Part shown: piece by piece, positions 4,912 through 64,000 of the stretch | Layout: every line of letters starts with the position of its first letter | Position numbering within the stretch: the first letter of the stretch is position 1 | Source: Sipunculus nudus | Taxonomy: Eukaryota; Annelida; Sipuncula; Golfingiida; Sipunculidae | NCBI GenBank assembly: GCA_026874595.1 | Contig: CM049318.1 | Coordinates: 46,914,456-46,978,455, forward strand | Length of the DNA: 64,000 nucleotides | Reading direction: 5' to 3' | Notes under the pieces: generated by a model | What the model saw: the letters and a program-made list of their open reading frames with translations, nothing else | Told to the model about the DNA's origin: nothing | Database searches by the model: none | Program-made: the position numbers and the translations under genes

Positions 4912-5105
4912 AACAAGGCCTACAGGCCTAATGCGACCTGTGCAATGAGATTATACCAGGTATAATGCTTCAATGCTGAACCATTACTTTTCAAGAACAT
5001 GTGTAACATGTATTTGAACAATGCAAGTACTAAACACTTAGAACAAGAAACAATTAAACAAACATCACTGCTGCAATTCTGGCATGGGTGCACACAACAC
5101 AAAAA

Positions 5106-6292
5106 CTAGAATATGGGTAGTCAACAAGCGACTACGTGTATCTGCCAAAATCAGAGTGGGAAAGGTGAAGTGAGGCATAGATTGAGTGGCAAGGGGAAAT
5201 AGAGTGAGGTGTGTTGCATAATAGCCTGGATGTCTGCAGCCAATATGTGTATGTAGGTGGCGTCACCTGTCATAAAATCAAGAAAGTTGTCCAGGATGTA
5301 TACACATGCAAAATTCAGGTGGATAAGTCCAACCAATGCAGAGATATGAGTGTTTTTATCCCAAGGCAGATAAACAGACGGACGCTGTGCAAAAATGGTG
5401 GCAGGTGGCGCCACCAATTTTGTGTATGATTAAAAGATATATGAGATCTATACACATGCAAAATTTCAGGGGAATAAGTCAAACCAGTCCTGAGATATAA
5501 GCCTGAATGTCTGCAGCATATACATAAATGTAGGTGGCACCACCTGCCTAAAAATCCAGAAAGCTATCCAAGATGTATAAACATGCAAAATTTCAGATGG
5601 ATAAGTCAAACCACTGCCAAGATAGGAGTGATTTTATCCCAAGGCAGATGAACAGATGGATGCTGTGCAAAAATGGTGGCAGGTGGCACCACCAGTTTTG
5701 CATATGATAAAGAGCTATGGGAGATCTATACACATGCAAAATTTTGGCCCAACTGGTCAAACAGTTCCCGAGATATGAGCTTGGATGTCTGCAGCTTAAA
5801 CGTGAATGTAGGTGGCGCCACCTGTCATAAAATCAAGAAAGCTGTCCAGAATGTATACACATGCAAAATTTCAGGAAAATAAGTCCAACCAATGCTGAGA
5901 TATGAGCAATTTTATCCCAAGGCAGATGAACAGATGGACGTTGTGCAAAAATGGTTCCAGGTGGTGCCACCATTTTAGTGTATGTTATAAAGCTTTCCAA
6001 GGGCTACATTTGTGCAAAATCTTTAGCCTTATCGGTCAAACGGTTCCCGAGATATGTGGGTTTATGTGTGGAAACAGACACACAAATGGACGCTGGGCAG
6101 AGAGGAAAGGTCAGAGGTCAACCAAAAATGAGGGCGCAGCAGTTCATATGTGACCGATCATAATTCCAAATTTTAAAAAATTCTGCCCAGTGGGTATGGA
6201 GGAGTTCTCCGGAAACCTATGCAGCAATTGCGGCAGCGTCGGCGTCCGACTGAAAACATAGTATCCACAAAACTCTGTTTTGGCGGATACAA
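5106..6292 (-). mobile_element. Family C Helentron-like element inserted in family A
   Basis: The left end has a hairpin GTAGTC (5117-5122) / GACTAC (5130-5135), then GTATCTGCCAAAA (5138-5150). The right end has TTTTGGCGGATAC at 6278-6290, the inverted complement of the left arm apart from one base. The flanks read 'acaacacaaaaa' and 'tgattgtagctgg'. In the family A copies at 15764-15790 and 61665-61690 these flanks are fused as an empty site, so the boundaries are well supported. The interior is a dimeric 129/149-bp tandem array and an end region with 'ggaaaggtcagaggtcaacc'. Confidence 0.8.
5253..6085. repeat. Dimeric 129/149-bp tandem array with GGTGGCGCCACC palindromes
   Basis: The palindrome-bearing motif starts at 5253, 5401, 5530, 5679, 5808 and 5957, giving spacings of 148, 129, 149, 129 and 149 bp. 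One half-unit reads 'gtaggtggcgccacctgtcat', the other 'gcaggtggcgccaccagtttt'. The true period is therefore about 278 bp, made of two diverged halves. Both halves share 'cacatgcaaaatttc' and 'gagatatgag'. Confidence 0.9.
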
Positions 6293-7886
6293 TGATTGTA
6301 GCTGGCACCACCAGTATGTCAAACAAAACTATTTATAGAGCTGACATCATCTTGGCTAATGGCCAACATCAAGGCACTGGCAATCTGCCAATGGTAAACC
6401 AAGTGCTGCCATCTGTACACAAAAGTGGTCCCTACTTGTAATAACTTTGAAATTTATTTTCCCAATACGAAAGGCTTTTCAGCTGACTTTTTATAAGAAA
6501 GAATTCAGGAATATATGTAAAATTATTATGGATACATACTGAATGCAAAATTAAAATACAGATATATCTCATTGATGGCAAATTCTTGAATTAAGTTGAG
6601 TAGGGATACCAATAATTTATAATCCACGTACAGTTGTCTTTATATAGCCACAGAGAGCTGAATATCCATGATTGTACCATTGCCTGGTATGATGAATAAC
6701 TTAAATCATAAATCTAGCTTTTAAAAAAACTTTCTTGTCAATATTAACCAAAGATAACCTGAAATCTAAATGTCTAGTGGCATGATGTAATAGATGCTGA
6801 TAAACTGGTGCCAGGCTAGATGTAACAGCATCACACAGCTAACATATATGGTAAAATGACTCAATTCAAGCTCCATATTTCAGCCAAAAATCATTCATGT
6901 GGAACCATTAATGACAATTATTATAAGAATTATTGTAGGGATTATTCTTGTAAAATATTTAACGAACTGCCTTCAGTGGCATCAGTCGAAAAACATTTTG
7001 CAGGTTTATAACTCATATAGGAAGATACAGCAAACTGGCTAAGTTCAGCTTCCCGTACATCAGCCAAAAAGCACTGAACCAAAACCATTTGAACAAACTT
7101 GAATTATCAACATCTGAGGATAATTAATGTGTGAGATTTAAGAATTTGGCCCAGTGGTTTTTGAGAAAAAGATCTTTGTAGTCACTGAGCTCAAATGGGC
7201 TGTTATGGCATATGACTATATTCAGCTTCCCATAACTTAGCCAAAAGTCACTGAACTGAGACCATTTGAACAAACTTCAGAAAGCACTACCCTAGGATCA
7301 TTTCTGTGCGATATTAAACATTTTGGCCATAAGGTTTCAGAGAAGAAGTTTTTTGTAGCCCTCAGTGTAATACAGGCACTGATGACCCCGTACAAAAAAG
7401 GCCGATGCAGGTGGCGCCACCAATACCTCAATTTCAGATATGTCTCATGTGACCAACATTGGCATAAAATTTGGTGATGATAGCTCCAGCCTTTTCTGAG
7501 ATTGTAATTTTAGTATGCTTTTATGGACAGATGACTTAGTTCAACTTCCTGTAACTCAGCCAAAAATCTCCGAACTGGAACCATTCGAACAAACCTGAGA
7601 AAGATTGTTCCAGGGATCATTTCTGTGAAATATTGGACAATATGGCTGGACAGTTTCAGAGAAGAAGATTTTTAAAGTTTTTTGTAGCTTTTCCCCCATA
7701 AAATCTAAGAAAATGCAGTAAGCCAAAAAATAAGCAAAATCTAATTAAGTTTTTTTAGATAAATAATTTTTTGCATAAAATTTTGTGATGCTAACTCTTG
7801 CCTTTTTCAAGATAGTATGGGTTAACGTACAGACGCCGGACGACGGCTGAGGCCACACCATCTCATAAGCAAACAGGTTCGCTTAC

Positions 7887-8375
7887 AATATTTTTTACCA
7901 AATATGGGGGCCAATATGTTGAATCTCTCTTGAGAAAAGAGCATTAATTTATTTTACAGACACAGGAAGGATGGTGTCTGGTTTTCAAGAAAATTTTCAA
8001 GATGGATAGACATGCCAAATTTAAGACCAAAACCTTGAAACACTCCAGAGATATGAGCAATTTTCACCAAAAGCACATGTACAGATGGACACCATGGCAA
8101 AATGATAGCAGATGGTGCAACCAGTCTTAAGTACCAGATGGAGGAGTCTAAGATCAATGGATATGCACAATTTCAGGCCAATAGTGCAAATCACTCCTCA
8201 TAAAAGAGCATCAATTTATTTTTTTAAACAGGAAGGTAGGTGGCACCATCTGTCTGGTTTATGAGAACACTTTCCAAGAAGGATGGACATTCCAAATTTC
8301 AGACAAATACCTTGAACCAATCCAGAGAAATGAGCAATTTTCACCCAAAGCACACATACAGATGGCTGCCATGCT
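7887..8375. repeat. Tandem array, left part, with palindrome-type sites
   Basis: Units carry 'atggatatgcacaatttcaggccaatag', 'gagcaattttcaccaaaagcaca' and degenerate GGTGGCGCCACC sites near 7973, 8112 and 8233. They alternate two half-units of about 125 and 139 bp. The array is interrupted at 8376 by a full family B element and resumes at 11574. Its own terminus on the left is not clear. Confidence 0.65.
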
Positions 8376-8409
8376 AACAAGGGACCCATGGGTCACGGCG
8401 CTCAGCTGA
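8376..8409. other. Family B hairpin terminus, best preserved copy
   Basis: The 12-bp perfect palindrome GACCCATGGGTC lies 7 bp inside the end. It is followed by CACGGCG and the arm CTCAGCTGA, which pairs with TCAGCTGAG at the far end. Other copies read TCATGACG or TTTCGACG between palindrome and arm, as expected from loss of methylated CpG. Confidence 0.75.
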
Positions 8410-11400
8410 TCATGATTGGACTATAAATGTTTCTCCACTGTGATACTATATCGAGTCAATAAAGCTTATGAATATCATGGACATGTTGGGCTATTATAAA
8501 GGAATGTAATGTAATATGTGAGTAAATGATAAATGAAATTACCTGACTGATGGATTAATAGAGTCAAATATAGTGGTTTCTATTTTATTTATTTAGGAGG
8601 GGTTGAAAATTGTGATATATTTGAGGAAATATGAATGCAATGACAGCAGTATTAAGCAGTAGTAGAATGATGATAAGGCTATTTGTTGAAGGATCTAAAG
8701 TGTATGGTAGTCTGCAAGCTTTCAATTTGACAGATATGATGTTATGATTAACTATGCTGATAAAGTGATTTATGAATTTGTGACTGTATGACACAATATC
8801 TCTTTAGTCTTGACAAGGTACATTATTGTGATGCCCACTATGTTTATATTACACAATATTGACATAATTTCTGGCATGTACATAGGTACCTATGGACGAA
8901 TAGTTATACAAAATATTAAAGTATGAATATATCTGATTCTTCTTGTTCTTGCTTACTAAGGCTGACTTTGGGATGGGGTTCAGAGAAGGGAAAAGTGAGG
9001 GCAGCACGAAGGTGGATGTAGAAATATTCTATTGTAGTTTTTCATTTATATAAGAATATGAAAAGCTAATAGGAAAGGGGCCCTCCAACTTGGTTATAGT
9101 AAAGTTCTAAATATATGATTGCAAACTAATACTCTGACAAGACTGTCATGAAGAAAAACAGTAAAATTTTGAGATACTGTGATGCATATGAAAATTTACA
9201 GATGGACAGGCAAGTGGACAGAATGGACTAATACCTTAATTTCACTTTCAAGGGAATAATGCATTTAAGTTTATATATAATCCTATTTTTTTTAAGCATA
9301 TCCACTTTTTCCATTAAGAAGTTCTTATCTGAATCATTTTTTTATTTACAGATTTTATAAATTTTTAATAAAAAAACCTGAAAATATAAGTTAAAATATT
9401 AGAATTGTTGCAAAAGTTGCAATCATTATATATACAGAGTAAAAAACTGAAACTATAAGTTAAAATATTAGAATTGCTGCAAAAGTTGCAATCATCATAT
9501 ATCTAGAGTGTAGCTCATATTGGGTCATATTATGCATACACATATATTTTGTTATTTTTAAATCATAAATGTTTAAACTGAATTTAAAAGAAAATAATGC
9601 CACAACATGGCATCTACAAGAATATTCCTTGAATCACTATTAAAAAGTTTTGCACATTCGAGTTTTCAGTACATGCTTAATTTTATTCACCAAAATAAAA
9701 TAAAAGTAAATTTGATAAAATAAAACATCTTTTCAAATAAAGTATACACACTGTTGGTTGAATGAGGGACAAACAATATCATCGTGCTAATTACTATCCC
9801 AGTGTTAATTTATTACTGGAATTAATAGTCAATTTCACACCTGGTGAAGTTTTTACTCTTCTGAAGTAAGGAATTACTTATCTGATGAACATCCACACTT
9901 TCATAGCAATACACCACTTTGTGGACACAATTAAATGTACACTCAATCACTGTAACCCTGGTGGTACAATACAAAATCTAAAATGTAGCATAGCCTAGAA
10001 TAAGAATGAATCAAATACAGAAAATAATAACATTCATCTAGTTTATGCACCATCTGGGGGGGGGGAGTGCAGGGCAGAGGGGAAGCCTGCTGGTAGTGGC
10101 CAGGCTGACCCAAGGCAAGCTGCCTGGGGTGGGTTACATAATGCAAGTGAAGGCTGTATACTACTAGGTGGGCTAGATGTAAACAACAATTGACATGGTG
10201 TATGAAAACATGAATAAAAGCTATTCTTTCCAATCAATTTCTTTGAAATTTCAGATTTTAAAAGATTAAATCCTTATGTATATATGCTGTGAAAATTAAA
10301 TCAACAGTGCCAAAGTTGGACAAAATTTAAGGTATTGATTTTTTATTTATGCTAATAACTTGGAAAATTTGCAAAATTCAGATCTAATTTTTGGTAAACA
10401 ATTGAATCTTGATTAAATAAAGTTATATTCCTGAAAAAAAGTCTCTAGGTTCAGCAATTCTCATGTTAGGTGAGTAAATATATTTCCTGATTTTTTTAAA
10501 AATTGCATTATGTTTTGGCCCATAACTTCAAAATAATACCCAATACAGAGCTAATTTTTGGTATGTTCATAGAAAATGTATGAAAGAATGTGAATACTAA
10601 ATACAATCAAAAACAGATCAGTGGTTTTGATATTAGGCAGCCTTGAAGTGTAACGATGGCTTTTTTTATGGAAAACGGAGTTTTTTTTCCTTAATATCTC
10701 GAAGGAACAAAGTCCTAATGACCCAATTTTCGGTATGGTAGGAGATTTTGGGGACATCTAAAATTATGCCAACAGCCTGGGGAGCATAGAGAGGTGCACT
10801 GAATGACCTACAGTCATCAAAGTGGACTGCTTGACAATGTAAGGGAATACAACAAGAGCCTCCAAAAAAATCAATAACTAGCCTATTTTGCAGCTTTTAT
10901 TTTCAAATTTCAGATTTTAACAGATTAAATCCTTATGTATACATGCTGTGAAAATTAAATCCACAGTACTTACAGGAAAAAACGTGCCGTGGCCAAAGTT
11001 GGGCAAAATTTAAGGTACCAATTTTATATTTTTGCCAATATTTAAAAAAATTTAACAGATTTTGATCTAATTTTTGGTATACAATTAAATTTTGATTAAT
11101 AAAAGTTGTATTACTGGAAAAAAAGTCCCTACCTTTAACACTTTTGGTCTTAAGTGACCAAATATCTTCCTGATTATTTTACAAAGTCCATTATGTTTGG
11201 GCCATAACTGTTTTAAATTATATAATACTGACTTAATATCTGGCATGTACCTAGGAACTATATAGAAGAATATTTATGGTAAATATGAAGAAAACCAGAT
11301 GAGTGGTTAAGATATTAGGCAGTCCTGAAGTGTGAAAATAGATTTCTAATAAAAAACTGAGGTTTTTCCTTAATATCTCGAAGGAACGAAGTCCTATTGA

Positions 11401-11573
11401 CCCAATTTTCGGCATGGTAGGAGATTTTTGGGACATCTAACTGTATGCCGAATTTCAGATTCGTAGGTCCAACGGTGTCGAAACGTGCCAGTCTTACGGA
11501 CAGAGGGACGGACGACGACGGACAATGGACCACAACTATAGCTCAGATGACTTATAGTCAGCTGAGCTAAAAA
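8376..11573 (-). mobile_element. Family B Helentron-like element, complete
   Basis: The left end is AACAAGGGACCCATGGGTCA, containing the palindrome GACCCATGGGTC, then GCGCTCAGCTGA. The right end is TCAGCTGAGCTAAAAA (11558-11573). The flanks 'gctgccatgct' and 'tgattgctgatgg' rejoin into the host array, so the element is bounded on both sides. It is 3.2 kb, with no transposase-like frame. Internally it holds a 75-bp tandem duplicate near 9380-9500, a G-run, and two diverged copies of a ~690-bp segment (from about 10240 and 10900) ending in 'cttaatatctcgaaggaac'. GGACGACGACGGAC precedes the right arm. Its nearest relative is 18023-22780, which it resembles almost throughout. Confidence 0.8.
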
Positions 11574-12952: not shown

Positions 12953-13523
12953 TTATATTGTAAAGTTTAAACCAATCAGCTTAACAGTTTCATCATAAAA
13001 CAGTGTATAACCTAGAAGAGTCTAAAATTACATTTTTCGCTTGTAAAAAACAGATCAATATAGGTGGCGCAACCAATACCTCAATTTCAGTTACGACTTA
13101 TGTGACAAACATTGGCATAAAATTTAGTTATGATAGCTCCAGCCGTTTCTGAGATTTTAATTTTAGTGTGCTTTTTTTCAGACAGATGACTCAGTTCAAC
13201 CTCCTGTAACTCGGCAAAAAATCTCAGAACTGGAACCATTCGAACAAACTTGAGAGAGATTGTTCCAGGGATCATTTCTGTGAAATATTGGAAAATTTGG
13301 CAGGACAGTTTTGGAGAAGAAGAAGCTTTTTAGTTTTTTCCCTATAAAATCTAAGAAAATGCAGTTAGAAAAAAAAATTTAAAGTTTTTCAGATGACTGA
13401 TTATTTACAAAAAAATTTGTGATGCTAGCTCCTGCCATTTTTGAGATAGCTATGGTTAATGTACAGGCGACCCATGACAGACAATGCCGCACCATCGCAT
13501 AAGCTCACAGGTTTGCTAAAAAG
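12953..13523 (-). mobile_element. Family A element, right-end fragment
   Basis: The body phrases 'aaaccaatcagcttaacagtttcatcat', 'aaaacagatcaatataggtggcgc' and 'aactcggcaaaaaatctc' lead to CATCGCATAAGCTCACAG and GTTTGCTAAAAA. Very similar to 45360-45943 and 63850-64000. The hairpin half is missing. Confidence 0.65.
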
Positions 13524-14208: not shown

Positions 14209-15596
14209 AACTAGGGACCCATGGGTCTCAACGCTCTGCTGCATTTATCTATAAGGATATATGTTTATGAGGTTTTCCAAAATATTGATCCTGTGATCAG
14301 TTTGAAGCCAACCTGTCTACCCAAACTGGAGTTATCATCCATAAACTAATGTGTGAATGGATGGGCCCTGTGAGCTTAACCTTTGACCTTATGACCCCAA
14401 AATCAAAATGAAACTTCCCCTATTGGCAGCTCAGCTATATGTGCAAGATGGAAGGTTTTGGATGAAAAGTTTGGCTCAAAATGTATCCACAATCTTTCTA
14501 AAGTAGTGGGTACTGTGACCTTGACCTTTGATCTCATGACCCCAAAATCAAAGGGATTCTTACTTTAGTGGTGGGCCATATATAAGTCAAGTTTGAAACC
14601 AATATTTCAAACCAAACTGGTGTTATCATCTGGAAACTAATATATGTGTATTGATGGCCCCCATGACCTTTACCTTGTGACCCCAAAATCCATAAGTTAC
14701 TTCCACTATTGGCAGGTGAGCATCATCTAGAAGATAGAATGTTTGGGACAGAAAGTTTGGCTAAAAATACATCAACAATCTTTTTAAAGAAGTGGGTCCT
14801 GTGACCTTGACCTTTGGCCTTATGACCCCAAAATCAAAAGTGTTCTTACATTATTGGTGGGTCATATATAAGTCAAAATGGAAACCAATATGTCGATCTG
14901 AACTGGAGTTATCATCCAGAAACAAATATGTGGACAGATGGGCCCCTGTGAAGATGACCTTTGACCTTGTGACCCCCAAATCGATCAGTTTCTTCCCCTA
15001 TTGGCAGCTCAGCTATATGTGCAAGATGGAGGTTTTGGATGAAAAGTTTGGCTTAAAAAGCATCCCCAATCTTTCTAAATTAGTGGGTACTGTGACCTTG
15101 TCCTTTGACCTCATGACCCCAAAAACCACACGGTTAAGTTTGAAACCAATATGTCAAACTAAACTGGAGTTATCATCTGGAAACTAATTTGTGAACAGAT
15201 GGCCCCTGTGACCTTGACCTTTGACCATGTGACCCCAAATTCATTTATGTTCTCCCTATACTGGCAAGTCAGATAAATGTGCAAAATGGAAAGATTGGGA
15301 TGAAAAGCTTGGCTTAAAATGCAGCCGTAATCTTTTTTAAAAAGTGAGTCCTGTGACCTTGACCTTTGACCTCATGACCCCAAAATCATATAGGTTCTTG
15401 CTTTAGTGGTGGGCCATATGTAATTCAAGTTTAAAATCCATGTGTCAATACAACCATCTGAAATGATAACTATATGGCATCCACTTATGAAAAACACACC
15501 AGGTTTTGGGACACTAGATGTAATTACATCTACATGATCTGACATGATTGTTGTCATTTTATAGTGAAAAAAATTTAAAATATTCGTTTAAATAAC
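14209..15596 (-). mobile_element. Family B start (variant) with AGGTCA dimer array
   Basis: The left end AACTAGGGACCCATGGGTCT keeps the family B palindrome. TGACCTTTGACC cores or variants follow at 14381, 14526, 14668, 14812, 14959, 15103, 15219 and 15364, mostly 142-147 bp apart. Two half-units alternate. One has 'cctattggcagctcagctatatgtgcaagatgg', the other 'tggtgggccatatataagtcaagtttgaaacc', so the real period is about 288 bp. The array is cut at 15597 by a family A insertion. The matching B right end is probably at 24407. Confidence 0.65.
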
Positions 15597-24407: not shown

Positions 24408-24539
24408 ATGTGCTATACTTCACAAGTACACAATTCTATGTTTCACCTGATTTGGTCACGGTCAAGGTCAACTTTATTATAACAAGGCCTACAGGTCTAA
24501 TGCAAACCTAATCAGTCTGTGCTCAGCAAGTACAAGGTA

Positions 24540-31773: not shown

Positions 31774-31840
31774 AAGAGCTGAGAGGTGACTTTCCCTGTA
31801 TAGTACTAACATTTGAGAAGGTGAGATATTTTACACAAAG

Positions 31841-46777: not shown

Positions 46778-46788
46778 CCAAATATGCG

Positions 46789-48827: not shown

Positions 48828-50553
48828 AACAAGGCCTACAGGCCTAAATAAGATGAACCTGTGCAACCAGATATACATCAGATATAATGCTTCCATGCTT
48901 GACCAATTATTTTTCAGGTACATGTGTGACATGTATAGGTACAGTGCAAGTACTAAACATTTTGAACTGGAGTACAAGCACCAATTACACAAACTTCACT
49001 GCTGAAATACTGGAATGGGTGCACACAATACAAAAATTATTATAGGTGGCGCCACAATTCTTGTGTACAATAAAGCCATCAAAGATGTATGGACATGCAA
49101 AATTTCAGGCAGATACTACAAACCACTTTTGAGCTATGTGCACAGATGCATGAAACAATTGTAGGTGGCATCAAAAGTCTTTTATACAAAGTATCTATCT
49201 GAGATGTATACATATGCCATATTTCAAGCTGATATATCAAATCCTTCCTGAGAAATAAGCATGGACATAACTGTGCAAAAAGTTATTGAAAGTGGTGACA
49301 CCAGTCTCGTGCATAAGAAAAACCATTAAAGATGCATGGACAAGTCAAAATGTCAGGCAAATACATCAAACTTTTCGAGTCAGGTGCACTGGGCTGACCT
49401 TAAAGCTCAGGTGAGGAAGACAGTTGCCCCGAGTGAACTAAAACAAATTGCCAGGTGTAGCTGCTGCACTGAGTCAACTTTTGACCTGAATTTGGCTGTA
49501 CTGAGTGAACTCTTGACCTGTTGCCAAATCTGATACAGTTGGCAGTCTTCCAAAGCTATAAATAGATCCAGACTTATCTTTGACCTATTGCCAAATCTGT
49601 TTACATATATTGAAAGACTTTGGTGACAATGCTTTTTTTCAAGCTGACATATCCATAAGACTGTTTTATCAAAATGTTTAGAATAAAAAAATGTAGTCCT
49701 TTAATTGTAAAAGGTTCAATAATTCTGCCCAACAATCATTTAAGTAAACTTGAAGGCCACCTAAGAATCATTTTTGTGCAATGTTACAGAAGTTGAAACA
49801 ACAGTTTTATAGAAGAAGACCATTGCAGTCCTCAGTTTGTTTGAAATAGGCTCACTAACGGCCACAAGACCAATTTCATGCAGCTTTCTTTGATTCTAAC
49901 AAAAATAAATTAACCAAATCTATTCTTAAACAACTGAAAGAACCCTACCCTAAGATAACCCTTATGAAAATTAATTGATTCAGCTTGACAGTTTCATCAT
50001 GAACCATTTTTAAACTGAAAGTTCTAGGCTTAAATTATGAGGTTTTTTGTCCATAAAAAAACAGGTTGATGTAGGTGGCACCACAAAAACTGCAATTTCA
50101 AATATGAGTCATGTGACCAACATTAACACCAACTTGGTGATGCTAGTTCCTGTCAATTCTGAGATTGTTATGTCAGTATGCTAAATTGGCCAAATGACCA
50201 AGTTCTAATTCATGTAACTCTGCCAAAATTAATCAAACTGAAACCATTTGAACAAACTTGAGAGAGCTCATCTCTTGGATCATTTCTGTGAAATACAGAA
50301 CAATTTGGCTGGACAATTTTGGAGAAGATTTTAAAGTTTTTTAAGCTTTTTCCCTATAAAGTCTATGTAAATGCAGATAGAAAAAAATAAGCAAAATCCT
50401 ACTGAGTTTTTTACATGACTGATTTTTTTTTGCATAAAATTTGGTGATGCTAGCTCATGCCATTTTTGAGGTAGTATAAGTTAATGTACGGCCTACAGCT
50501 GACGGCTGACAGTTGATGCCACACCGTCGCATAAGCTCCCGGGTTGCTAAAAA
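48828..50553 (-). mobile_element. Family A Helentron-like element, complete, compact
   Basis: The left end is AACAAGGCCTACAGGCCT then GATGAACCTGTGCA. The right end is CGTCGCATAAGCTCCCGGGTTGCTAAAAA in type. The length is 1.73 kb. The order is hairpin, three palindrome-bearing units (near 49046, 49165 and 49293), the 'gagtgaactcttgacctgttgcc' block, the body with 'aaactgaaaccatttgaacaaacttgag', and a GACGGCTGACAG stretch. This is the simplest full-length copy and a good reference for the family layout. Confidence 0.8.
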
Positions 50554-53561: not shown

Positions 53562-54911
53562 TTACTACAGATGCAAATTGAATGCAAAATTATAATACAG
53601 ATACATCTCACTAATGGCAAAATCTTGAATTAAGTTGAGTATGGATACCAATTACTTATAATCTATGTATAGACGTCTTTATATAACCACAGAGAGCTGT
53701 ATACTTACGTGATTGTTAACATTGCCAGGCATGAAGAATATCTAAAATCATAAATATACATTTTTTAAAAGCTTAAAAAAAACATTCTTGTCAATATAAA
53801 CCATAGATACCCTGAAATCTGAAGGTCTAGAGGCATGATGTAATGGATGCTGATAAACTGGTGCCAAGGCTAGATGAATCTGCTTTACACGGCTAACATA
53901 CCAGTATATGGTGAAATGACTCAATTCAATTTTTATAATTCAGCCAAAATTCATTCTTTGGAACTATAAAAGATAATTATTATAAGAATTATTCAGGGGA
54001 TTATTTTTGTAAAATATTAAACAAAGTGGCCTCAGTGGCATCAGTCAAAAAACGTTTTGCAGGTTAACAACTCATATGGGAAAATACAGGAAAATGGCTA
54101 AGTTAAGCTTCCCATAACTCAGCCAAAAATCAGTGAACCAAAACCATTTGAACAAACTTGAATTATCAACATCTAAGAATAATTACTGTGTGAGATTTAA
54201 GAATTTGGCCCAGTGGTTTTTGAGAAGATCTTTGTAGCCACTGAGCTGAAATGGGCTGTTATGGCATATGACTAAATTCAGCTTCCCATAACTCAGCCAA
54301 AGTCACTGAACTGAGACCATTTGAATAAACTTCAGAAAGCACTACCCTAGGATCATTTCTGTGTGATATTAAACAATTTGGCCATATGGTTTCAGAGAAG
54401 AAGTTATTTGTAGCCCTCAGTATGATACGGGTACTGATGACCCCCGTACAAAAAAGGCCGATCCAGGTGGCGCCACCAACACCTCAATTTCAGATATGAC
54501 TCATGTGACCAACATTGGCATAAAATTTGGTGATGATCACTTCAGCCGTTTCTGAGATTGTAATTTTAGTATGCTTTTTGGACAGATGACTAAGTTCAAC
54601 TTCCTGTAACTCGGCCAAAAATCACCGAACTTAAACCATTCGAACAAACTTGAGAGAGATTGTTCCAGGAATCATTTCTGTGAAATATTGGACAATTTGG
54701 CTGAACAGTTTCTGAGAAGAAGATTTTTAAAGCTTTTTTAGCTTTTTCCCTATAAAATCTTAGAAAATGCAGTTAGCCAAAAAATAAGCAAAATCCGATA
54801 GTTTTTTAGATGACTAATTTTTGCATAAAATTTCGTGATGCTAACTCTTGCCGTTTTCAAGATAGTATGGGTTAACGTACAGACGACGGACGACCATCAC
54901 AGGTTCGCTAA
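53562..54911 (-). mobile_element. Family A right-half fragment
   Basis: The body restarts at 'ttactacagatgcaaattgaatgc' right after a complete A right end, and finishes CATCACAGGTTCGCTAATAA. It corresponds to 22781-24137. Confidence 0.7.
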
Positions 54912-55370
54912 TAATATTGCTCTTGATCATCTTTAAATTACAAGTAGTATTATGATCCCTACTGTACATATGAGTCTGAGTAAGGTCTGAGTGTGTAAAT
55001 TTGCTGTACATTGTGTATATGACAGCTTGTATACGACCACATTAATCATGCTGGGGCCCAGATTAACAGGTGTCTGTGACCTGCCAAGAGTACACCAGTA
55101 CAATGTAACCCACCTGGCAGCGATCATTCACCTTCTTCATCATTTATCATCTATTTTCAGGTGTTTTTTTCCTCACATGTTTTACATGACTTTCAAGGAG
55201 TTTACTGAGCCTACAGATGTATGAATGATGTATTTTTACAGAGACTCTTGACTGAAATCTCTTAACTGCAGTGATTGTGCTTATTTTTTACAGTTTTTGC
55301 TGTAATGATCATATCAGATTACAAAGTTAATAAATCCAGCTTGGTAAATAATATTTATGATGTGTTAAAA
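54912..55370. other. Unassigned DNA, no supported gene
   Basis: I recognise no repeat motifs and no frame longer than 77 codons. It forms the left flank of the 28-bp minisatellite. Confidence 0.4.
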
Positions 55371-55513
55371 AGGACTCTAAAGAGAAGATAACAGGACAAC
55401 AGGAAAACTGAAGAGGTGATAGGACAAAGTGAAAACAAAGTGGTGATAGGACAAAGTGAAAACAGAAGAGAGGACAAGACAAAGTGAAAACAGAAGAGGT
55501 GAAAGGATAAAGT
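55371..55513. repeat. 28-bp minisatellite, block 1
   Basis: The units are variants of GTGAAAACAGAAGAGGTGAT AGGATAAA. The block is cut after 'aggataaagt' by a family B element, and resumes at 58584 with 'cagaagaggtgaaaggat'. Confidence 0.9.
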
Positions 55514-55698
55514 AACAAGTGACCCATGGGTCATGACGCTCAGCTGACTGGGAAGAGATTCGCTAAAGGAAATTTTATCATCAGAATGGTAGTATATACC
55601 CATTCAACTGAAGCATCAAACAGATTAACCAACAGGCCAAGATTTAGTCTGTATTTATATATCTCAAAAATAGAGAAAAAATGTGTAAACTTTAAAAA

Positions 55699-56877
55699 CT
55701 AGAATACGGGTAGCCGACAAGTGACTATGTGTATCCGCCAAAATCAGAGTGGAACAGTTGAAGTGAGGCATGGATTGAGTGGCAAGGGGAAATAGAGTAA
55801 GGTATGTTGCATATTAGCTTGGATGTCTGCAGCCTTAATGTGTATGTAGATTGTGCCACCTACCACAAATCCAGAAAGCTGTCCAAGTTGTATACATATG
55901 CAAAATTTTAGGCAGAAAAGTCAAACAACTACATGTATATGAGTGATTTTAGCCGACGGCAGACAAACAGACAGACGCTGTGCAAAAATGGTTGCAGGTG
56001 GCCCCTCCAGTTTTGTGTATGATAAAGACCTATGTGAGATCTATACACATGGAAAATTTTGGCCCAATCGTTCAAACGTTCCCCAGATATGAGCTCGGAT
56101 GTCTGCAGCATAAACTAGAATGTAGGTGGCGCCACCTGTCATTAAATCAAGAAAGCTATCCAGGATGTATAAAACTGCAAAATTTTAGGCAGATATGTCA
56201 AACCACTGCCGAGATATGAGTGACATTATCCCACAGCAGAAAACAGACAGACGCTGTGCAAAAATGGTTGCAGGTGGCGCCACCAGTTTTGCGTATGATA
56301 AAGAGCTATGTGATATCTATACACATGCAAAATTTTGGCCCAATCGGTCAAACTGTGTCTGAGATATAAGCTTGGATGTGATCAGCGTGAACGTGAATGT
56401 AGGTGGCGCCATCTGTCATAAAATCAAGAAAGCTATCCTGGATGTATATGCATGCCGAATTTCAGGTGAATTAGTCAATTCACTGCAGAGATATGAGTGA
56501 TTTTTACCCAAGGCAGATGAACAGATGGACACTGTGCAAACATGGTTACAGGTGGCGCCACCACTTTTGTGTATGTTATAAAGCAATCCAAGGGCTACAT
56601 TTGTATAAATTTTATTTCCTGATTGGTCAAATGGTTCCCGAGATATGAGGGTTTATGTGTGGATAAGACGCACAAATGGACGCTGGATAGAGGGGAAAGG
56701 TCAGAGGTCAACACAAATTGGTTAGGCACTAGTTCACATGTGACTAGATAATTAGTGTAAGTTTCTGAAAAATCGGTCCATTTTTCTCAGAGGAGCTCTC
56801 TGGAAACAAACGTGGCGGCGGCGGAGGAACCCGGTCAAAAACATAGTATCTGCAAAACTTCGTTTTGGAGGATACAA
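55699..56877 (-). mobile_element. Family C element inside family B
   Basis: The left end is 'ctagaatacgggtagccgacaag-tgacta', a weakened hairpin, then GTATCCGCCAAAA (exact arm). The right end is CGTTTTGGAGGATACAA. The flanks 'gtgtaaactttaaaaa' and 'aaatacaggtggctccacc' are the two sides of a B tandem unit. Here too the target is an A-run. Confidence 0.8.
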
Positions 56878-56883
56878 AAATAC

Positions 56884-58440
56884 AGGTGGCTCCACCAGTC
56901 TGCAGAAACTAATAAAAACACTTAATGGTCAATATCCATGCAAAGAATCATGGTGATCTCTGCATTAGTTGTTCAGATACTTCAGCTTTTGTATCAAATT
57001 GTCCATTATTCTGAGGGATAATTCAGAGTCCTATAGCTTGAAGGATATGGGTAACAGAGACCTAATTTCAAGTTTCCACAGGCACTCTTCATGGGCCTCC
57101 TTGTATGACAAGAATGAAGTTTCTAGGTCCAGTTGTTGCAATTTGTACCCTGTTGACAGATAACCACATCTTTAAAGGTCTCAAAAAAAGAGAAAAAAAA
57201 TTCGTAAAAATTTGAAAAAAATAGAGGTGGCGCACCCATTCTGCAGAAACTGTTGGAACAGCTCATGATCCATATGTATGCCGAAAATCATGACCATCAG
57301 TGTTGTAGTTATTGAGATATTGAAGATTTTGTATGAAATTTTTTACTACTCTGGGGGGTACTTTGGGGCCCCATAGCTCTAGGGTTGGGTAACAAAGACC
57401 TAATTTCTGGTTTCCATGGAGACTTTTCATAGGTCTCTCAGTGTGTCGAGAATGAAGATTCTAGGTCCAGTTGTTACGATTTGTGCCACGCTAACAGATG
57501 ACAGCATCCTTAAAGGTCTCACAAATAGAGGAAAAAATCGTGAAAAATCGAACAATACAGGTGGCGCCACCAGTCTGCAGGAACTGATTGAACATCTCAT
57601 AATCAATATGTATGCCAAAAATCATGACCATCAGTGATGTAGTTATTGAGATATTGAAGTTTTTGTATGAAATTTTTGACAACTCTGGGGGGTACTTTTG
57701 GGCCCCATAGCTCGAAGGATATGGTTAACAGAGACCTAATTTCTGGTTTCCAAGGATATTTTTCATGGACCTCTCAGTGTGTCAAGAATTAAGATTCTAG
57801 GTCCAGTCTTTACGATTTGTTCCTTGTTAACAGATGTTCACATTTTGAAAGGTCTCAAAAATAGAGAAAAAAATTCGTAAAAAATTGAACGATATAGGTG
57901 GCGCCACCAGTCTGCAGGAAGTAATGGAACATCTCATGATCAATATGTATGCCAAAAATCATGACCATCAGTCAAGTATTTAATGAGATATTGAAGTTTT
58001 TGCATGAAATTTTTTACTTTTCTGGGGGGTACTTTGGGGCCCCATAGCTGCAAGGATATGGGTAACAGAGACCTAATTTCTGGTTTCCATGGAGACTTTT
58101 CATAGGTCTCTCAGTGTGTCGAGAATGAAGATTCTAGGTCCAGTTGTTAGGATTTGTGCCTTGTTAACAGATGTTCACATTTTTAAAGGTATCAAAAATA
58201 GAGAAAAAAATTCGTAAAAAATCGAAAAATACAGGTGGCGCCACCAGTCCTCAGGAAGTGATGGAACATCTCATGATCAATATGTATGCCAAAAATCATG
58301 ACCATCAGTCAAGTAGTTAATGAGATATTGAAGTTTTTGTATGAAATTTTTTACTTTTCTGGGGGGTACTTTGGAGCCCCATAGCTGGAAGGATATGGGA
58401 AACAGAGACCTAATTTCTGGTTTCCAAGGAGATTTTTCAT
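56884..58440. repeat. 337-bp tandem array of family B with GGTGGCGCCACC
   Basis: AGGTGG starts at 56884, 57225, 57559, 57896 and 58233, with spacings of 341, 334, 337 and 337 bp. Each unit has the palindrome (or a decayed form), 'ctgcaggaa-tgat-gaacat', 'ccatagct', 'aacagagacctaatttctgg' and 'ggtctcaaaaatagag'. Confidence 0.9.
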
Positions 58441-58583
58441 TGACCTCTCAGAATGTAAAGTTACAAGATTCTAAGTCCAGCGGTTACGATTTGTGCCAGG
58501 TTAACGGACAGACCGACAGACGGACGACGGACAAAGAGTGATTGCTATAGCTCAGCATGACTGAAAGTCAGCTGAGCTAAAAA

Positions 58584-58911
58584 CAGAAGAGGTGAAAGGA
58601 TCAAGTGAAAACAGAAGAGGTGATAAGTCAAAGTGAAAACAGAAGAGGTGATAGGATAAAGTGAAAACAGAAGAGGTGATAGGATAAAGTGAAAACAGAA
58701 GAGGTGATAGGATAAGGTGAAAACAGAAGAGGTGACAAAACAAAGTGAAAACAGAAGAGATGACTGGACAAATTGAAAACAGAAGAGAGGACAAGACAAA
58801 GTGAAAACAGTAGAAGTGAAAGGATAAAGTGAAAACAAAAGAGGTGAAACGATAAAGTGAAAACAGAAGAGGTGATTGATTAAAGTGAAAACAGAAGAGG
58901 GGCAAGACAAA
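58584..58911. repeat. 28-bp minisatellite, block 2
   Basis: There are about 12 units. The unit-variant order at 58745-58875 (…gagatgactggacaaattg…gtagaagtgaaagg…) is repeated at about 60985-61110 in block 3. The blocks were therefore one array, with higher-order copies, before the insertions. Confidence 0.9.
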
Positions 58912-60816
58912 AACAAGGGACCTATGGGTCACTGTGCTCAGCTGACGTTAACCTTGAAGGTAAAAATCTAAAATGATATCTAATGGAGATAAAGTGTAAG
59001 AGGAAGAGGTAATAAAGGCCATGGTTGGTTTATATGATTGGTTTGTATTGATGAGCAAGAAATTGTTGCAAAAAATATTTTGTGACCTGACCATGTGTTT
59101 CCTAATGTTGAAACTAAAGCATGTGAGCAGTTTGTGAACAAATGATCTGTACTATAACCATGATCATTAATTGGTTTTTTGATTAACTGTTGACATTTCA
59201 GTAGTTTACACATTTGTTCAACTGAATCTATTTTTTTGTATAATATATATTATTAAATATATATGTATTTTTTTTATGAAATGTATACAGTTGAAATACA
59301 GCTAATAAACAACATAAAACAGGGCAAACAAAGCCTGATCTCAAATTCTGCTGAGGCAGGAAAATAATGAACACATGTTTGTATTAAATCCTGATTTTTT
59401 TATCACATCAATTATTTTCTAATTTAAGTTTATATTTCTATACATTTCCAATTTAACATATATATCTGGATATAAAAGTTGATTCATAATTCTCAATTGT
59501 ATCATCATAAATCTCAATCTTGTCAGATAACACACCACATCATGCATACAAATGTTTATCTATTTTTTACCACAAAAATATATCTTTTAAATCTGCAAAA
59601 CAGTATCTAAAAATAATACTTGATTTAGATTTCACAATTTTTAATTGTGTCTTTATTTATTCATAATGTGCTTCATATTTTATAATAAATTAAGCATACT
59701 GATGGGTTCATTTATATTTATAAAATCATTTAAAAGAAAATTGATTTCTTTAAAAATGCTACATTACACAACATTGCATCTTCTGGGTTACACCTTGAAT
59801 TATTTTTTCAATGAAAGTTTTTGCATATCGGAGTGGAAACAGCATTACAATTAAGGAGATACAGTGAAAACAATAACAATTACTGCATAACACTTGGTGG
59901 GTTGGGTTTGCGGGGGGGGGGGGGGGGGGGTGATTGGGGTGGTGATATGAGAATAACTGTACACCTGTCACAGCAGGGGATCTCCCCCAGTGACTGTAAC
60001 AAATCAGAAACCCTGGCATAGCTGACTTCCAGTGACCTGGAGTGGGACCCTGCATCTGTAATCAAAGCAAGTGACTACAGAAAAAAAAATCAATAACTAG
60101 CTTAATTTTCAAGCTTTTATTTTCAAATTTCAGATTTAGACAAACTAAATATTTATGTTTACATGCTGTGAAAATTAAATCAATGGTGCTTATAGGAAAA
60201 AAACGTGCCATGGTCAAAGTTGGGCAAAATTTAAGGTACTGATTTTTTTTTTATGCTAATAACTTAAAAAAATTACAAAATTCAGATCTAATTTTGGGTA
60301 AACAATTGAATCTTAATTAAACATAGTTAAATACTTGAGAAAATAGACTCTAGTTTCAAAATTTTTCATGTTAAGTGAGTTATTATTTTTCCTGATTTTT
60401 TACAAAGTCCATTATGTTTGGGCCCATAACTTAAAGAATTTATACTTTTCAGTCTTAATTTCTGGCATGTACATAGGAACTATATAGAGGAATATTTATG
60501 GTAAATATGAGGAAAAACAGATGAGTAGTTTTGATATTAGGCAGTCCTGAAGTGTGAAAATAGGATTTTAATAAAAAATTGAGGTTTTTCCTTAATTTCT
60601 CAAAGGAACGAAGTCGCAAAGACCCAGTTTTCGGCTTGGAAGGAGATCTTGGGGATATCTAACATTATGCTGAATTTTGGATTCCTAGGTCTTACGGTTT
60701 CAAAACGTGCCACATCTACGGACGGACGGACGGACGGACGGACAGACAGACGGACGGACGACTGACAATGGACCACGACTATAGCTCAGATGACTTATAG
60801 TCAGCTGAGCTAAAAA
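58912..60816 (-). mobile_element. Family B element inside the 28-bp array
   Basis: The left end is AACAAGGGACCTATGGGTCA then GTGCTCAGCTGA. The right end is ATAGTCAGCTGAGCTAAAAA. The right 750 bp matches 10100-11573 ('cttaatttctcaaaggaac', 'tctggcatgtacataggaac'). The left 1.1 kb is AT-rich and private to this copy, with a 19-G run at 59912-59930. There is no coding frame. Confidence 0.8.
60718..60762. repeat. (GGAC)n microsatellite before the family B right arm
   Basis: There are about ten GGAC/AGAC tetranucleotides. Shorter versions occur at the same place, 20-60 bp inside the right end, in nearly all A and B copies (for example 11497-11522, 37013-37056, 58499-58533). Confidence 0.9.
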
Positions 60817-61480
60817 GGAGAAGTGAAAGGATAAAATAAAAACAGAAGAGGTGGAAGGAAAAGGTGAAAACAGAAGAAGTGACAAAACAAAGTGAAAACA
60901 GGAGAGGAGCCAGGATAAAGTGAAAGCAGAAAAGGTGATAGGACAAAGTGAAAACAAAAGTGGTGATAGGACAAAGTGAAAACAGAAGAGATGACTGGAC
61001 AAATTGAAAACAGAAGAGAGGACAAGACAAAGTGAAAACAGTAGAAGTGAAAGGATAAAGTGAAAACAAAAGAGGTGAAACGATAAAGTGAAAACAGAAG
61101 AGGTGATAGGATAAAGTGAAAACAGAAGAGGTGATAGGACAAAGTGAAAACAGAAGAGGTGATAGGATAAAGTGAAAACAGAAGAGGTGATAGGATAAAG
61201 TGAAAACAGAAGAGGTGATAGGATAAAGTGAAAACAGAAGAGGTGATAGGACAAAGTGAAAACAGAAGAGGGGCAAGACAAAGAAAAAACAAAAGAAGTG
61301 AAAGGATAAAATAAAAACAGAAGAGGTGGTAGGAAAAAGTGAAAACAGAAGAGGTGACAAAACAAAGTGAAAACAGGAGAGGAGCCAGGATTAAATGAAA
61401 ACAAAAGTGGTGATAGGGCAAAGTGAAAACAGAAGAGAGGACAAGAAAAAGGGAAAACAGAAGAAATGACAGGAAAAAGA
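60817..61480. repeat. 28-bp minisatellite, block 3, with ~475-bp higher-order repeat
   Basis: Adjacent units start 28 bp apart (61144, 61172 and so on). The variant 'gaggagccagg' occurs at 60904 and 61379, 475 bp apart (17 units less one base). The minus strand is free of stops in all frames over long distances, which gives spurious proteins up to 261 residues. Confidence 0.9.
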
Positions 61481-61830
61481 AACAAGCCCTACAGGCCTAA
61501 TGCGAACCTGTGCATTCTGATATACACAAGGTATAACGCTTCAATGCTGAACCATTATTTTTTATATTTATGAACAATACAAGTACTAAACATTTTGATC
61601 AAGAAACAATCACACAAACATCACTGCTGAAATTCATCACTGCTGAAATTCTGGCATGGGTGCACACAACACAAAAATGATTGTAGCTGGCACCACCAGT
61701 CTTGTATACAACGAAGCTATCAGAGATATATACATATGCCAAATTTCAGACTGATATATCAAACCCTTCCTGAGAAATAAGCAGGGACACACACTGTCCA
61801 AAAATTATTGTAGGTGGCACCACCATTATT
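61481..61830 (-). mobile_element. Family A left-end fragment
   Basis: AACAAGCCCTACAGGCCT then GCGAACCTGTGCA abuts the 28-bp array. It has the tandem-core entry ('acaacacaaaaatgattgtagctgg', another empty site for family C) and one further palindrome site at 61816-61827. It breaks off near 61830 into 130 bp of unassigned sequence. Confidence 0.65.
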
Positions 61831-62135
61831 CTCACTTGATCAGAAGGGAGACAAAGTTGAACTGCAAAAAAAGGTTTTAATTTTTTTCAATCCAGTATTC
61901 ACAGTGCAGAAGGCCCATCAGACGAGATGTTGGTAATAAACCAATCAACTATTTGGAGATTTAAACAAGGCCTACAGGCCTAATGCGAACCTGTGCAAAG
62001 TTTGGGAGTATGAATGGTTTATTTTTTTAAATTTTATATTGATCCTCTTAAGTCCTGCATATCTACCTTAGTCATTATGATTTCAGCAAAATGGATGTTT
62101 CAGACCTGCAAGTTTCAGACTAGGACATTTTAAAA

Positions 62136-63480
62136 CTAGAATATGGATAGTCGACAAACGACTATGTGTATCCACAGATATCAGAGTGGGACAGGTGGAG
62201 TGAGGCATGGATTAAGTGGCAAGGGGAATAGAGTGAGGAGTGTTGCATATTAGCATGGATGTCTGCAGCCTAAACGTGAATGTAGGTGGTGTCACCTGTC
62301 ATAAAATGGAGAAAATTGTCAAGGATGTATAAACCTGCAAAATTTCAGGTGGATAGGTCAAACCACTGCTGAGATAAGAGTGATTTTATCCCAAGGCAGA
62401 TGAACAGATGGACGCTGTGCATAAGTGGTTGCAGGTGGCACCACCAGTTTTGCCTATGATGAAAAGCTATGTGAGATCTATACACAAACAAACTTTTGGC
62501 CCAATTGGTCAAATGGTTCCCGAGATATGAGCTTTGACGTCTGCAGAGTAAACATGAATGTAGGTGGCACCACCTGTCATAAAATCGAGAAAGCTGTCCA
62601 GGATGGATAAACCTGCAAAATATCACAGATATCAGAGTGGGACAGGTGGGATAAGTCAAACCACTTCGGAAATATGAGTGATTTTATCCCAAGGCATATG
62701 AACAGATGGAAGCTGTGCATAAGTGGTTGCAGGTGGCTCCACCAGTTTTGCCTATGATGAAGAACTAACTGAGATCTAAACACATGCAAAATTTTGGCCC
62801 AATCAGTCAAACAGTTCCCGATAAATGAGCTTGGATGTCTGCAGAGTAAACCTGAATATTGGTGGCACCACCTGTCATAAAATCAAGAAAGCTAGCTGTC
62901 CAGGATGGATAAACCTGCAAAATTTCAGGTGGATAAGTCTAACCACTTCTGAGATATGAGTGATTTTATCCAAAGGCAGATGAACAGATGGACGCTGTGC
63001 ATAAGTGTTTGCAGGTGGCGCCACCAGTTTTTCCTATGATGAAGAGCTATGTGAGATCTATGCACATGCAAAATTTTGGCCCAAACGGTAAAACAGTTCC
63101 TGAGATATGAGCTTGGATGTCTGCAGAGTAAACGTAAATGTAGGAGGTGCCACCTGTCATAAAATCGAGAAAGCTGTCCAGGATGTATGAACCTGCAAAA
63201 TTTCAGGTGGAACTACTGCTGAGATATGAGTGATATTATCCCAAGGCAGATGGACAGATGGACGCTGTGCAAAAATGGTTGCAGGTGGCGCCACCATTTT
63301 TAGTGTATGTTATTAAGCAATCAAAGGGTTACATTTGTGCAAAATTTTTAGCCTGATCGGTGAAACGGTTCCTGAGATATGAGTGTTTATGTTTGGAAAC
63401 AGACGCACAAATGGACGCTGGGCAGCGAGGAAAGGTTGGAGGTCAACCAAAAATGAGGGCGCAGCAGTTCACATGTGACC
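62136..63480 (-). mobile_element. Family C element, right end missing
   Basis: The left end is 'ctagaatatggatag-tcgacaaacgacta', then GTATCCACAGATA in place of the usual arm. The core is eight palindrome-bearing half-units (62282, 62431, 62560, 62729, 62858, 63011, 63140, 63281). The copy follows family C to 'cagttcacatgtgacc' and then stops, about 150 bp short of the usual right end. Confidence 0.7.
62282..63330. repeat. Dimeric 129/149-bp tandem array
   Basis: The spacings of the palindrome motif are 149, 129, 169, 129, 153, 129 and 141 bp. The short half-unit is constant at 129, while the long one varies through small insertions and deletions (including a copied 'agatatcagagtgggacaggtgg' from the element's left edge at about 62628). 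Confidence 0.85.
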
Positions 63481-63567
63481 TGATGATAAACCCAATTCAC
63501 TTAAAAAGCAAACCAAGTTTTTTCAAATAGTTGAAAGATATAGTTCCAATAATCTGGGAATTCTGCA

Positions 63568-63632
63568 TCTAGACATTGTGTCAAGAAGTCTAGATGCTGT
63601 GTCTAGACGTCTAGACACATAGTCTAGACACC
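63568..63632. repeat. Cluster of TCTAGAC / GTCTAGA palindromes
   Basis: Inverted TCTAGAC words occur as at 45093-45160, with GTCTAGACGTCTAGAC at the centre and different spacing at the left. Confidence 0.8.
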
Positions 63633-64000
63633 AGCCAGAACCAGGTCAGTTGCCATGGTGATGTCTGGACCCCACCTGTTTGTACTGAGTGACCTCTTGA
63701 CTTGGCTGCTGAAACTCAGCATGTTGTCAAATCTGTTTTCAAACACAGAAACCCTTTTTCAATTGGCTACAATGCTTTTTTAAAGCTGTATTTACCCAAT
63801 CTATTCTTATAAAACTGGCTGAACCCTACCATAGAATAATTCTTGTAAAGTTTAAACCAATCAGCCTAACAGTTTCATCATAAATCAGTGTATAAGCTAG
63901 AAGAGTTTAAAATTACATTTTAGCTTGTAAAAAACAGATCAATGTAGGTGGCGCCACCAATACCTCAATTTTAGATATGACATATGTGACAAACATTGGT

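Follow-up and report, generated by a model that had tools for sequence, protein, structure and literature searches.

Two families of non-autonomous Helentrons in Sipunculus nudus and their orientation relative to host genes

Elements of the window

The window, a stretch of 64,000 nucleotides from Sipunculus nudus (assembly GCA_026874595.1, contig CM049318.1, positions 46,914,456 to 46,978,455), is dense in two families of HINEs (non-autonomous rolling-circle elements, here non-autonomous Helentrons) of ordinary build, termed A and B. End models of both families were built from window copies, so that the training copies match by construction. At E ≤ 1e-6 they gave 35 matches in the window, 35 on the plus strand and 0 on the minus strand: 9 with the A-left model, 13 with A-right (two of which are halves of one end), 6 with B-left and 7 with B-right (one partial). 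Weak minus-strand matches, at E above 1e-5, were the palindromes in reverse reading. Features are assigned to the canonical Helentron strand, and by this convention all A and B features lie on the minus strand.

Family A is represented by complete copies at 37232–41296 (both ends; cores of 278 bp and about 127 bp), 48828–50553 and 51217–53561, and by further copies at 4912–7888 (278-bp tandem core, degraded right end), 15597–18027 and 27867–30050 (intact left end, right end missing). A right part at 22776–24137 and a fragment at 41294–42139 both retain an intact right end. Right ends were found at 13425–13522 (the canonical 5′ end), 44946–45027, 45845–45942 and 54841–54913, and left ends at 24481–24520 (partial, E = 3e-6), 44564–44686 (diverged), 61481–61825 (with the start of the body) and 61964–63999 (with a 282-bp core, running past the window edge).

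Complete copies of family B lie at 8376–11573, inserted into another element's tandem monomer and with a weaker empty site at 70–83% identity, and at 55514–58583 (337-bp core) and 58912–60816, the last two within a 28-bp satellite that hosts element insertions and occupies 55393–55513, 58584–58911 and 60817–61480. The body of the copy at 58912–60816 provides, at 60025–60149, the empty site for an insertion found at another locus (L016:215-2844). A B copy at 34691–37105 has a second B left end at 34650, 41 bp upstream. The left end and adjoining body at 18023–18553 are 96% identical to 8374–8906, and the A copy ending at 18027 directly abuts this left end at 18023. The remaining B features are a weak left end followed by a 286-bp tandem core (14209–15448), a right end (24331–24408) and a fragment with an intact right end (42139–42482).

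The first-pass annotation had proposed three families. The 35 end-model matches bear out A and B; C, for which no coordinates had been given, was not supported. The best fit found was an array of 60 36-bp units between 13-nt inverted arms at 31641–31653 and 34629–34641. A genome search with the left flank of this candidate returned the candidate itself, a partial match within its own array and two weak matches elsewhere. The array at 31641–34641 (no strand assigned), whose left flank is thus nearly without genomic relatives, is a candidate for C.

Stop-to-stop frames within the A and B bodies did not exceed 140 aa, and absence of coding capacity is a HINE trait. No Pfam family scored above cut-off in 20 selected window frames (of 123), some of them in A or B, and Rfam gave nothing in the window at gathering scores. 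In the genome, left-end matches numbered 8,001 for A (3,940 + 4,061) and 7,567 for B (3,698 + 3,869), against 0 for the reversed controls.

Ends, internal plan and insertion sites

The left ends of A and B begin with AACAAG, as had been claimed, and an outer palindrome lies just inside (AGGCCTACAGGCCT in A, with two central mismatches, and GGGACCCATGGGTC in B), so placed near the canonical 3′ terminus as in HINEs. AACAAG by itself was not enriched in the window (40 against 61 expected). Most right ends terminated in GCTAAAAA or ACTAAAAA, and the proposed terminal word CTAAAAA was counted 44 times on both strands of the window, against 24.3 ± 5.0 expected (0 of 100 shuffles reached 44).

Matching of a subterminal arm across the two ends was clear in B and weak in A when exact arms were compared with shuffles. 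In B the arm was 10–12 nt exact in three of four complete window copies (0/500 shuffles) and 7 nt in the fourth (57/500). In A it was 8 nt in one copy (7/500) and 7 nt in another (39/500), and in three of five the search for the expected arm recovered no exact match; the A arm is weak in any single copy, and the arm motif recurs at a fixed place in many copies. One arm lies 6–8 nt from the oligo-T terminus, its partner about 24 nt from the opposite terminus, and subterminal inverted repeats close to one terminus and deeper at the other characterize HINEs. The tandem cores were confirmed, with units of 278, 337, 286, about 130 and 69 bp. An ACGG × 10.8 microsatellite (60718–60760) adjoins one of the B right ends; similar GACGG stretches occur at the other B ends and are less regular in A. 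A microsatellite and a tandem core between the modules are also HINE traits.

Given a minus-strand reading of the window, the asymmetric Helentron/HINE layout proposed earlier applies to A and B. The 5′ part comprises TTTTTAG, the subterminal arm, its inverted partner and a GTCC-like stretch, and the remainder the tandem core, 3′ arm, 3′ palindrome and a terminal CTTGTT. In their ends A and B would also be compatible with Helitron2, which is defined by asymmetric terminal inverted repeats, palindromes at both ends and a Rep/helicase lacking the endonuclease.

Insertion was into A/T runs, with the T run on the strand receiving the element and no clear target duplication, again as in HINEs. Consistent target-site duplications, a trait of DDE MITEs that the first-pass annotation had named as evidence against its reading, were looked for and not found: flanks of complete copies had 0–2 nt in common in 12 of 13 cases and 4 nt (ATAT) in the remaining one, a duplication composed of A alone being invisible to this comparison. 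Among the matches listed, one empty site was clear (98.4%) and three, in tandem repeats, were weaker.

As far as the available text of PMC7492417 describes it, Cg_HINE of the Pacific oyster resembles A and B in its 5′ subterminal arm with inverted partner, GTCC-like microsatellite, satellite-like core, 3′ arm and 3′ palindrome, in its T-rich target without duplication and in forming several families unrelated in sequence. Its monomers measure 138–181 bp, against about 130–337 bp (also 69) in A and B. Pearl elements of bivalves, later re-classed as non-autonomous Helentrons, are described in the same source as having a short central tandem array. DINE-1 and HINE-Mo (PMC4067079) have the subterminal inverted repeats, 3′ palindrome, TT target and variable oligo-T ends of A and B, with tandem repeats in some copies; arm spacing is 2–4 and 38–60 nt in the mite against the 6–8 and about 24 nt given above. 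Both have known autonomous partners whose ends match theirs, whereas none was found for A and B.

Helentron proteins (Rep/helicase with a fused endonuclease) are present in the genome, one combining OTU, Helitron_like_N, PIF1 and Exo_endo_phos domains within a single frame some 2,240 aa long, and the endonuclease was present in both Helentron proteins scanned. The end models found no A/B ends at five Helentron loci in the DNA examined, two of them extended, which did not reach the loci's own ends. The two extended copies share 99.2% identity across at least 11.8 kb, so their ends lie outside the examined DNA and were not reached within 14.9 kb. Mobilization of A, B and C by the same or sibling Rep-helicase enzymes, as first suggested, gained no support from these loci.

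Orientation along contig C1 and relative to genes

The orientation of A and B copies was mapped over the beginning of contig C1. Pairs lay on the same strand in 124 of 131 cases at less than 20 kb, 159/190 at 20–50 kb, 186/247 at 50–100 kb, 276/445 at 100–200 kb, 284/469 at 200–300 kb and 466/846 at 300–500 kb, and the 253 positions formed 52 strand runs against 123.2 ± 7.7 when shuffled. In a nearest-neighbour test limited to the first 16.47 Mb, which took in 93 of the 100 A and 160 of the 200 B places, A shared the strand of the nearest B in 36 of 39 cases within 20 kb (0/5,000 circular shifts) and in 20 of 22 within 10 kb (8/5,000). One orientation is common to the unrelated families over tens to about 200 kb. 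Some single-orientation runs span 0.9–1.2 Mb, which is long for single genes.

For comparison with genes, gene strand was taken from exon matches of two gene families only, and A/B pieces were sampled between the exons of 26 genes. Of the 19 informative genes, 18 had the canonical Helentron strand of their A/B pieces mainly in sense and one disagreed; the other seven had no A/B-body match. Plus-strand genes gave 11 to 1 (of 15) and minus-strand genes 7 to 0 (of 11). The A/B-body filter was chosen after the end-model counts were known; unfiltered, the result was 20 to 1 with 5 blank, and with end models alone 8 genes agreed and 2 disagreed. Support in agreeing genes was thin at L039 (91 against 86 bp, a near tie) and L022 (one 36-bp piece). 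Exceptions to gene-strand agreement were the C8 channel gene, L040 (weak old ends) and a 1.5-kb piece in L035. By identity, pieces agreed and disagreed 6:0 at ≥90%, 18:2 at 80–90%, 11:2 at 72–80% and 7:4 below 72%, the bias being greatest among the youngest. A and B copies in the sampled places point nearly always one way relative to the host gene, and about 94% of copies would obey this rule by a hand estimate from the 124/131 close pairs, with independence assumed. Target supply does not explain the bias, because T runs on the sense strand are only 1.03–1.21 times as frequent as A runs.

A less clean direct comparison between genes, using window-like pieces, gave 220 agreements against 48. 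Other repeats shared between introns, few in number and unlike the window, were also co-oriented (38 pairs against 5, with 14 of the 38 from one locus pair), and some of these may be other HINEs. Neither control transposon was clean: a LINE from intron locus L010 had 18 genome matches, and a guessed SINE core had 9, fewer than its reversed control (25). Some of the ABC-transporter matches lay on contigs of bacterial appearance, and around those on the mapped part of C1 the nearest 300 kb held no mapped element.

What is new is the orientation rule, the elements being ordinary HINEs. No earlier report of a rule tied to gene direction was found in the literature examined. For Cg_HINE, PMC7492417 reports integration in both orientations and, in the text consulted, mentions no relation to gene direction, in contrast to the rule described here.

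Proposed mechanism and alternatives

The reading we favour, at a probability of roughly 0.58, is that a Rep enzyme inserts A and B into the non-template strand while transcription leaves it single-stranded. An HUH Rep enzyme would require a single-stranded target, which would be the displaced non-template strand of a transcription bubble or R-loop; transcription would thereby set the insertion strand, and the all-plus layout of the window would mark one or more predicted minus-strand transcription units. According to PMC5371812, peel-and-paste transposition of IS200/IS605 likewise combines an HUH enzyme, a single-stranded target and orientation set by host strand opening, features that we infer for A and B; there the strand opening is replication, whereas for A and B transcription fits better. 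In HeLa cells, highly expressed genes were enriched for Helraiser insertions in their bodies and promoters, and for the initial steps of Helraiser transposition the authors considered two candidates, replication of the lagging strand and supercoiling driven by transcription (PMC4778049). We suggest more tentatively that insertion of the two unrelated families is almost confined to the displaced non-template strand of transcribed DNA, with R-loops or bubbles supplying the target, and that the left ends, over 15,000 in number, would show which strand of each region has been transcribed in the germ line. Near-complete coupling of strand and gene, if true, would explain single-orientation nests such as the window, would make element orientation a record of germ-line transcription, and would make the source of single-stranded DNA for eukaryotic HUH transposases testable in annotated HINE-rich genomes.

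Transcription is preferred to replication direction because of the gene-strand test. Entry into lagging-strand single-stranded DNA, with fork direction setting orientation and gene agreement a by-product of co-orientation of genes and forks, has a bacterial precedent in IS200/IS605 (PMC5371812), and runs of 0.1–1.2 Mb would suit replicons. The agreement in 18 of 19 genes nevertheless exceeds what partial co-orientation would give (about 1% probability by hand calculation, assuming 70% co-oriented genes), which leaves this explanation unlikely.

About as unlikely, and marginally behind fork direction, is random insertion followed by selection that removes copies with the A-rich strand in sense and leaves a single orientation in introns; poly(A) signals or effects on splicing are possible grounds for such selection. 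Other elements in introns show a weaker orientation bias, and in 32.4 kb poly(A) hexamers numbered 76 on the element plus strand (antisense in the sampled genes) against 51 on the canonical strand. Many hexamers stand on both strands, however, and the bias is strongest, not weakest, among the youngest pieces. Moreover, unless nesting gives much of it, the gene-blind agreement below 20 kb (124 of 131 pairs) would imply that hardly any copies lie outside genes.

Purely local causes, namely tandem rolling-circle products and insertion into the A runs of earlier copies to give head-to-tail clusters, are quite improbable as a whole account, although some of the agreement at short range can be put down to them. 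Copies do abut or nest in one orientation (18023–18027; copies B3 and B6), and tandem Helitrons are known (PMC7492417 and PMC5148889), but strands still match in 345 of 437 pairs separated by 20–100 kb, and independent genes on both strands obey one rule. A reading of A and B as MITEs of the DDE type, their hairpins arising by chance, is barely credible in view of their asymmetric ends, their insertion into A/T runs and the lack of a consistent target duplication.

Ends, layout and insertion sites of families A and B

The window lies at C13:46914456-46978455 in a genome of 1.43 Gb. Repeats make up a large part of it, and much of this is supplied by A and B, two families of HINEs (non-autonomous Helentrons). 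When the window was compared with itself, internal repeat matches of ≥150 bp, among the matches listed, lay on a single strand throughout, and end models of A and B gave 35 matches at E≤1e-6, 35 on the plus strand and 0 on the minus strand. Both families have sharp ends: A starts with AACAAGGCCTACAGGCCTAATGCGAACCTG and finishes with ...AAGCTCACAGGTTCNCTAAAAA, and B starts with AACAAGGGACCCATGGGTCACGACGCTCAGCTG and finishes with AGCTCAG...AGTCAGCTGAGCTAAAAA. The ends of A and B have no evident sequence relation to each other, and the tandem arrays between them differ from one another. Of the terminal words proposed in the first-pass annotation, CTAAAAA is enriched in the window and AACAAG by itself is not.

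Excerpts of PMC4067079 and PMC7492417 describe HINEs with an oligo-T 5' end adjoined by an arm and a palindrome just ahead of the 3' end. This order was found on the minus strand of the window (TTTTTAG, arm, inverted partner, GTCC-like stretch, tandem core, arm, palindrome, CTTGTT), so that the Helentron/HINE layout attributed earlier to these families holds for A and B. The B arm is exact over 10-12 nt in three of four complete copies of the window; since the A arm spans only 7-8 nt in two of five copies, its support comes less from how long any one match is than from recurrence at one place. The same annotation had proposed a third family, C, without coordinates. The sole tandem array with perfect inverted arms found outside A and B in the window, at 31641-34641, was taken as the candidate; besides its own position, a genome search with its left flank gave one partial match, which lies within the array, and two weak ones elsewhere, and the array was not counted as a mobile family. 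A and B are thus borne out and C is not.

Consistent target duplications, named earlier as grounds for refutation, were not found: among 13 complete copies (window and introns), the flanks share 0-2 nt in 12 and 4 nt in one, a duplication of A alone being invisible because A is also part of the element ends. For four insertions an empty site was recovered. One is clear: the B copy at L016:215-2844, a locus outside the window, lies in another B copy and splits a nine-A run, and its unoccupied match is window 60025-60149 (98.4% identity). Those of three further B copies (B1 and B2 within a 28-bp satellite, B3 within a tandem monomer) are weaker because they are located in tandem repeats. Insertion of A and B is Helentron-like, not DDE-element-like.

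Element strand relative to genes and along C1

Genes were sampled through exon matches of ion-channel and kinesin domains, DNA was fetched between exons of one gene, and strand was taken from the exons. Intron places were picked by exon position, before the elements inside were known, and gave 14 pieces from six channel genes and 20 pieces, each 4 kb long, from as many kinesin-domain genes. By pieces of A/B body, the canonical strand (the Helentron reading direction, minus in the window) was mainly sense in 18 of the 26 genes, with thin support in L039 (91 versus 86 bp) and L022 (a single 36-bp piece accompanied by a match to an A end model), and opposite in one; seven genes had none, and one of these, L040, carries weak old ends in the opposite orientation. 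Agreement to disagreement was 11 : 1 in plus-strand genes (of 15) and 7 : 0 in minus-strand genes (of 11), and the rule is therefore no chromosome-strand artefact. Aligned A/B length in the sampled genes was 27,819 bp canonical-sense versus 3,184 bp opposite. Opposite-strand pieces are also present in three agreeing or near-tied genes (the C5 channel gene, L035 and L039). The exception, the C8 channel gene, sits partly within a 7.9-kb local duplication, and two of its three copies therefore represent one event. With any match to the window counted, 20 genes agreed, one disagreed and five were blank; end models alone gave eight and two.

Window-like pieces aligned directly between genes agreed in 220 cases and disagreed in 48. 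Intron repeats unlike the window gave 38 agreeing orientation pairs versus five (14 of the 38 from one pair of loci), a warning that elements other than Helentrons may also obey the rule; some of these repeats may be further HINEs. A repeat at about 360-bp spacing in L030:1581-3989, common to L028:454-834 and without a match in the window, is perhaps a third HINE family.

Across the genome, the A left end (≤1 mismatch) has 3,940 forward and 4,061 reverse matches and that of B 3,698 and 3,869, with 0 in either reversed control. A map was made of the start of C1 from the first places among the matches listed (100 A, 100 B of the T subtype, 100 B of the G subtype). Strands formed long runs (52 runs in 253 places versus 123.2 ± 7.7 when shuffled). 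Same-strand pairs numbered 124/131 below 20 kb, 159/190 at 20-50 kb, 186/247 at 50-100 kb, 276/445 at 100-200 kb, 284/469 at 200-300 kb, 466/846 at 300-500 kb, 1,233/2,197 at 0.5-1 Mb and 3,519/6,648 at 1-3 Mb. A and the nearest B shared a strand in 36/39 cases within 20 kb (equalled by 0 of 5,000 circular shifts) and 20/22 within 10 kb (8 of 5,000). From the runs and nearest neighbours together, A and B have one common orientation map.

Proposed insertion during transcription and its alternatives

The polarity of HUH enzymes is fixed and their substrate is single-stranded DNA; of its donor, Helraiser takes a single strand (PMC5876387, where the account concerns the donor and does not show that a target has to be single-stranded). 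If the transferred strand joined T/T on exposed single-stranded DNA, the element would lie on that exposed strand; during transcription this would be the non-template, sense strand. Insertion there predicts a canonical strand that is sense, which matches the observation, and we infer that the target is opened by transcription itself. Helraiser inserts preferentially into highly expressed genes, in their bodies and promoters (PMC4778049). No such orientation rule appears in the main-text portions of PMC13286980, PMC5148889 and PMC5738225 consulted; the last, on barley, terms superfamily signals relative to genes relatively weak and tabulates transposon versus gene orientation in its supplement.

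The direction of replication forks might instead set the orientation, since some single-orientation runs on C1 reach 0.9-1.2 Mb. IS200/IS605 elements follow the same logic, orientation through strand opening (PMC5371812); there replication opens the DNA, whereas transcription is proposed for A and B. Random insertion followed by slow selection within genes is a less favoured reading. Poly(A) hexamers number 76 on one element strand and 51 on the other. Among pieces that are not all independent insertions, the bias is complete (6 : 0) at ≥90% identity to window copies and weakest, 7 : 4, below 72%, whereas slow selection should leave the opposite trend. With genes disregarded, about 94% of C1 copies would follow the local rule (a hand estimate that assumes independence and is inflated by nesting), which selection confined to genes would hardly produce. 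A greater supply of T runs on the sense strand is not favoured, as these are only 1.03-1.21 times as common as A runs there in masked introns.

Helentron enzymes and other sequences

A genome search for the Helitron Rep domain gave at least 143 matches, and two frames, each about 2,240 aa long, combine OTU, Helitron_like_N, PIF1 and endonuclease domains, the Helentron set. Autonomous Helentrons with A or B ends, suggested as a check in the first-pass annotation, were sought in five Helentron loci, and the DNA retrieved from them, reaching 14.9 kb in two, contained no such ends; we therefore only infer that the genome's Helentron enzymes serve A and B. The Helentron copies in L003 and L006, on two chromosome-size contigs, share 99.2% identity across 11.8 kb or more and carry a 69-bp tandem repeat near the protein start; their activity looks recent.

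In the window, 8374-8906 corresponds to 18021-18553, and 8904-10982 to 20283-22365, both at 96%; this is a local duplication carrying B parts, its second copy interrupted. A 162-aa open frame at 26938-27423 (+) weakly matches a chain of a retroviral nucleocapsid over 17 residues (E 0.008) and is possibly an old gag-like remnant; the next frame, 27427-27822 (+), had no match among solved structures, and frame 26530-26877 had no Pfam match. LINE-like frames at L010:700-10000, in which reverse transcriptase and endonuclease domains were recognised, lie within a 7.9-kb local duplication that has 1.4-kb repeats of 99.8% identity on both sides. Small contigs of the assembly (C61-C137) carry ABC transporter frames that are intact and about 600 aa long. 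Several of these frames score identically from one contig to another, and the contigs look bacterial (symbiont or contaminant).
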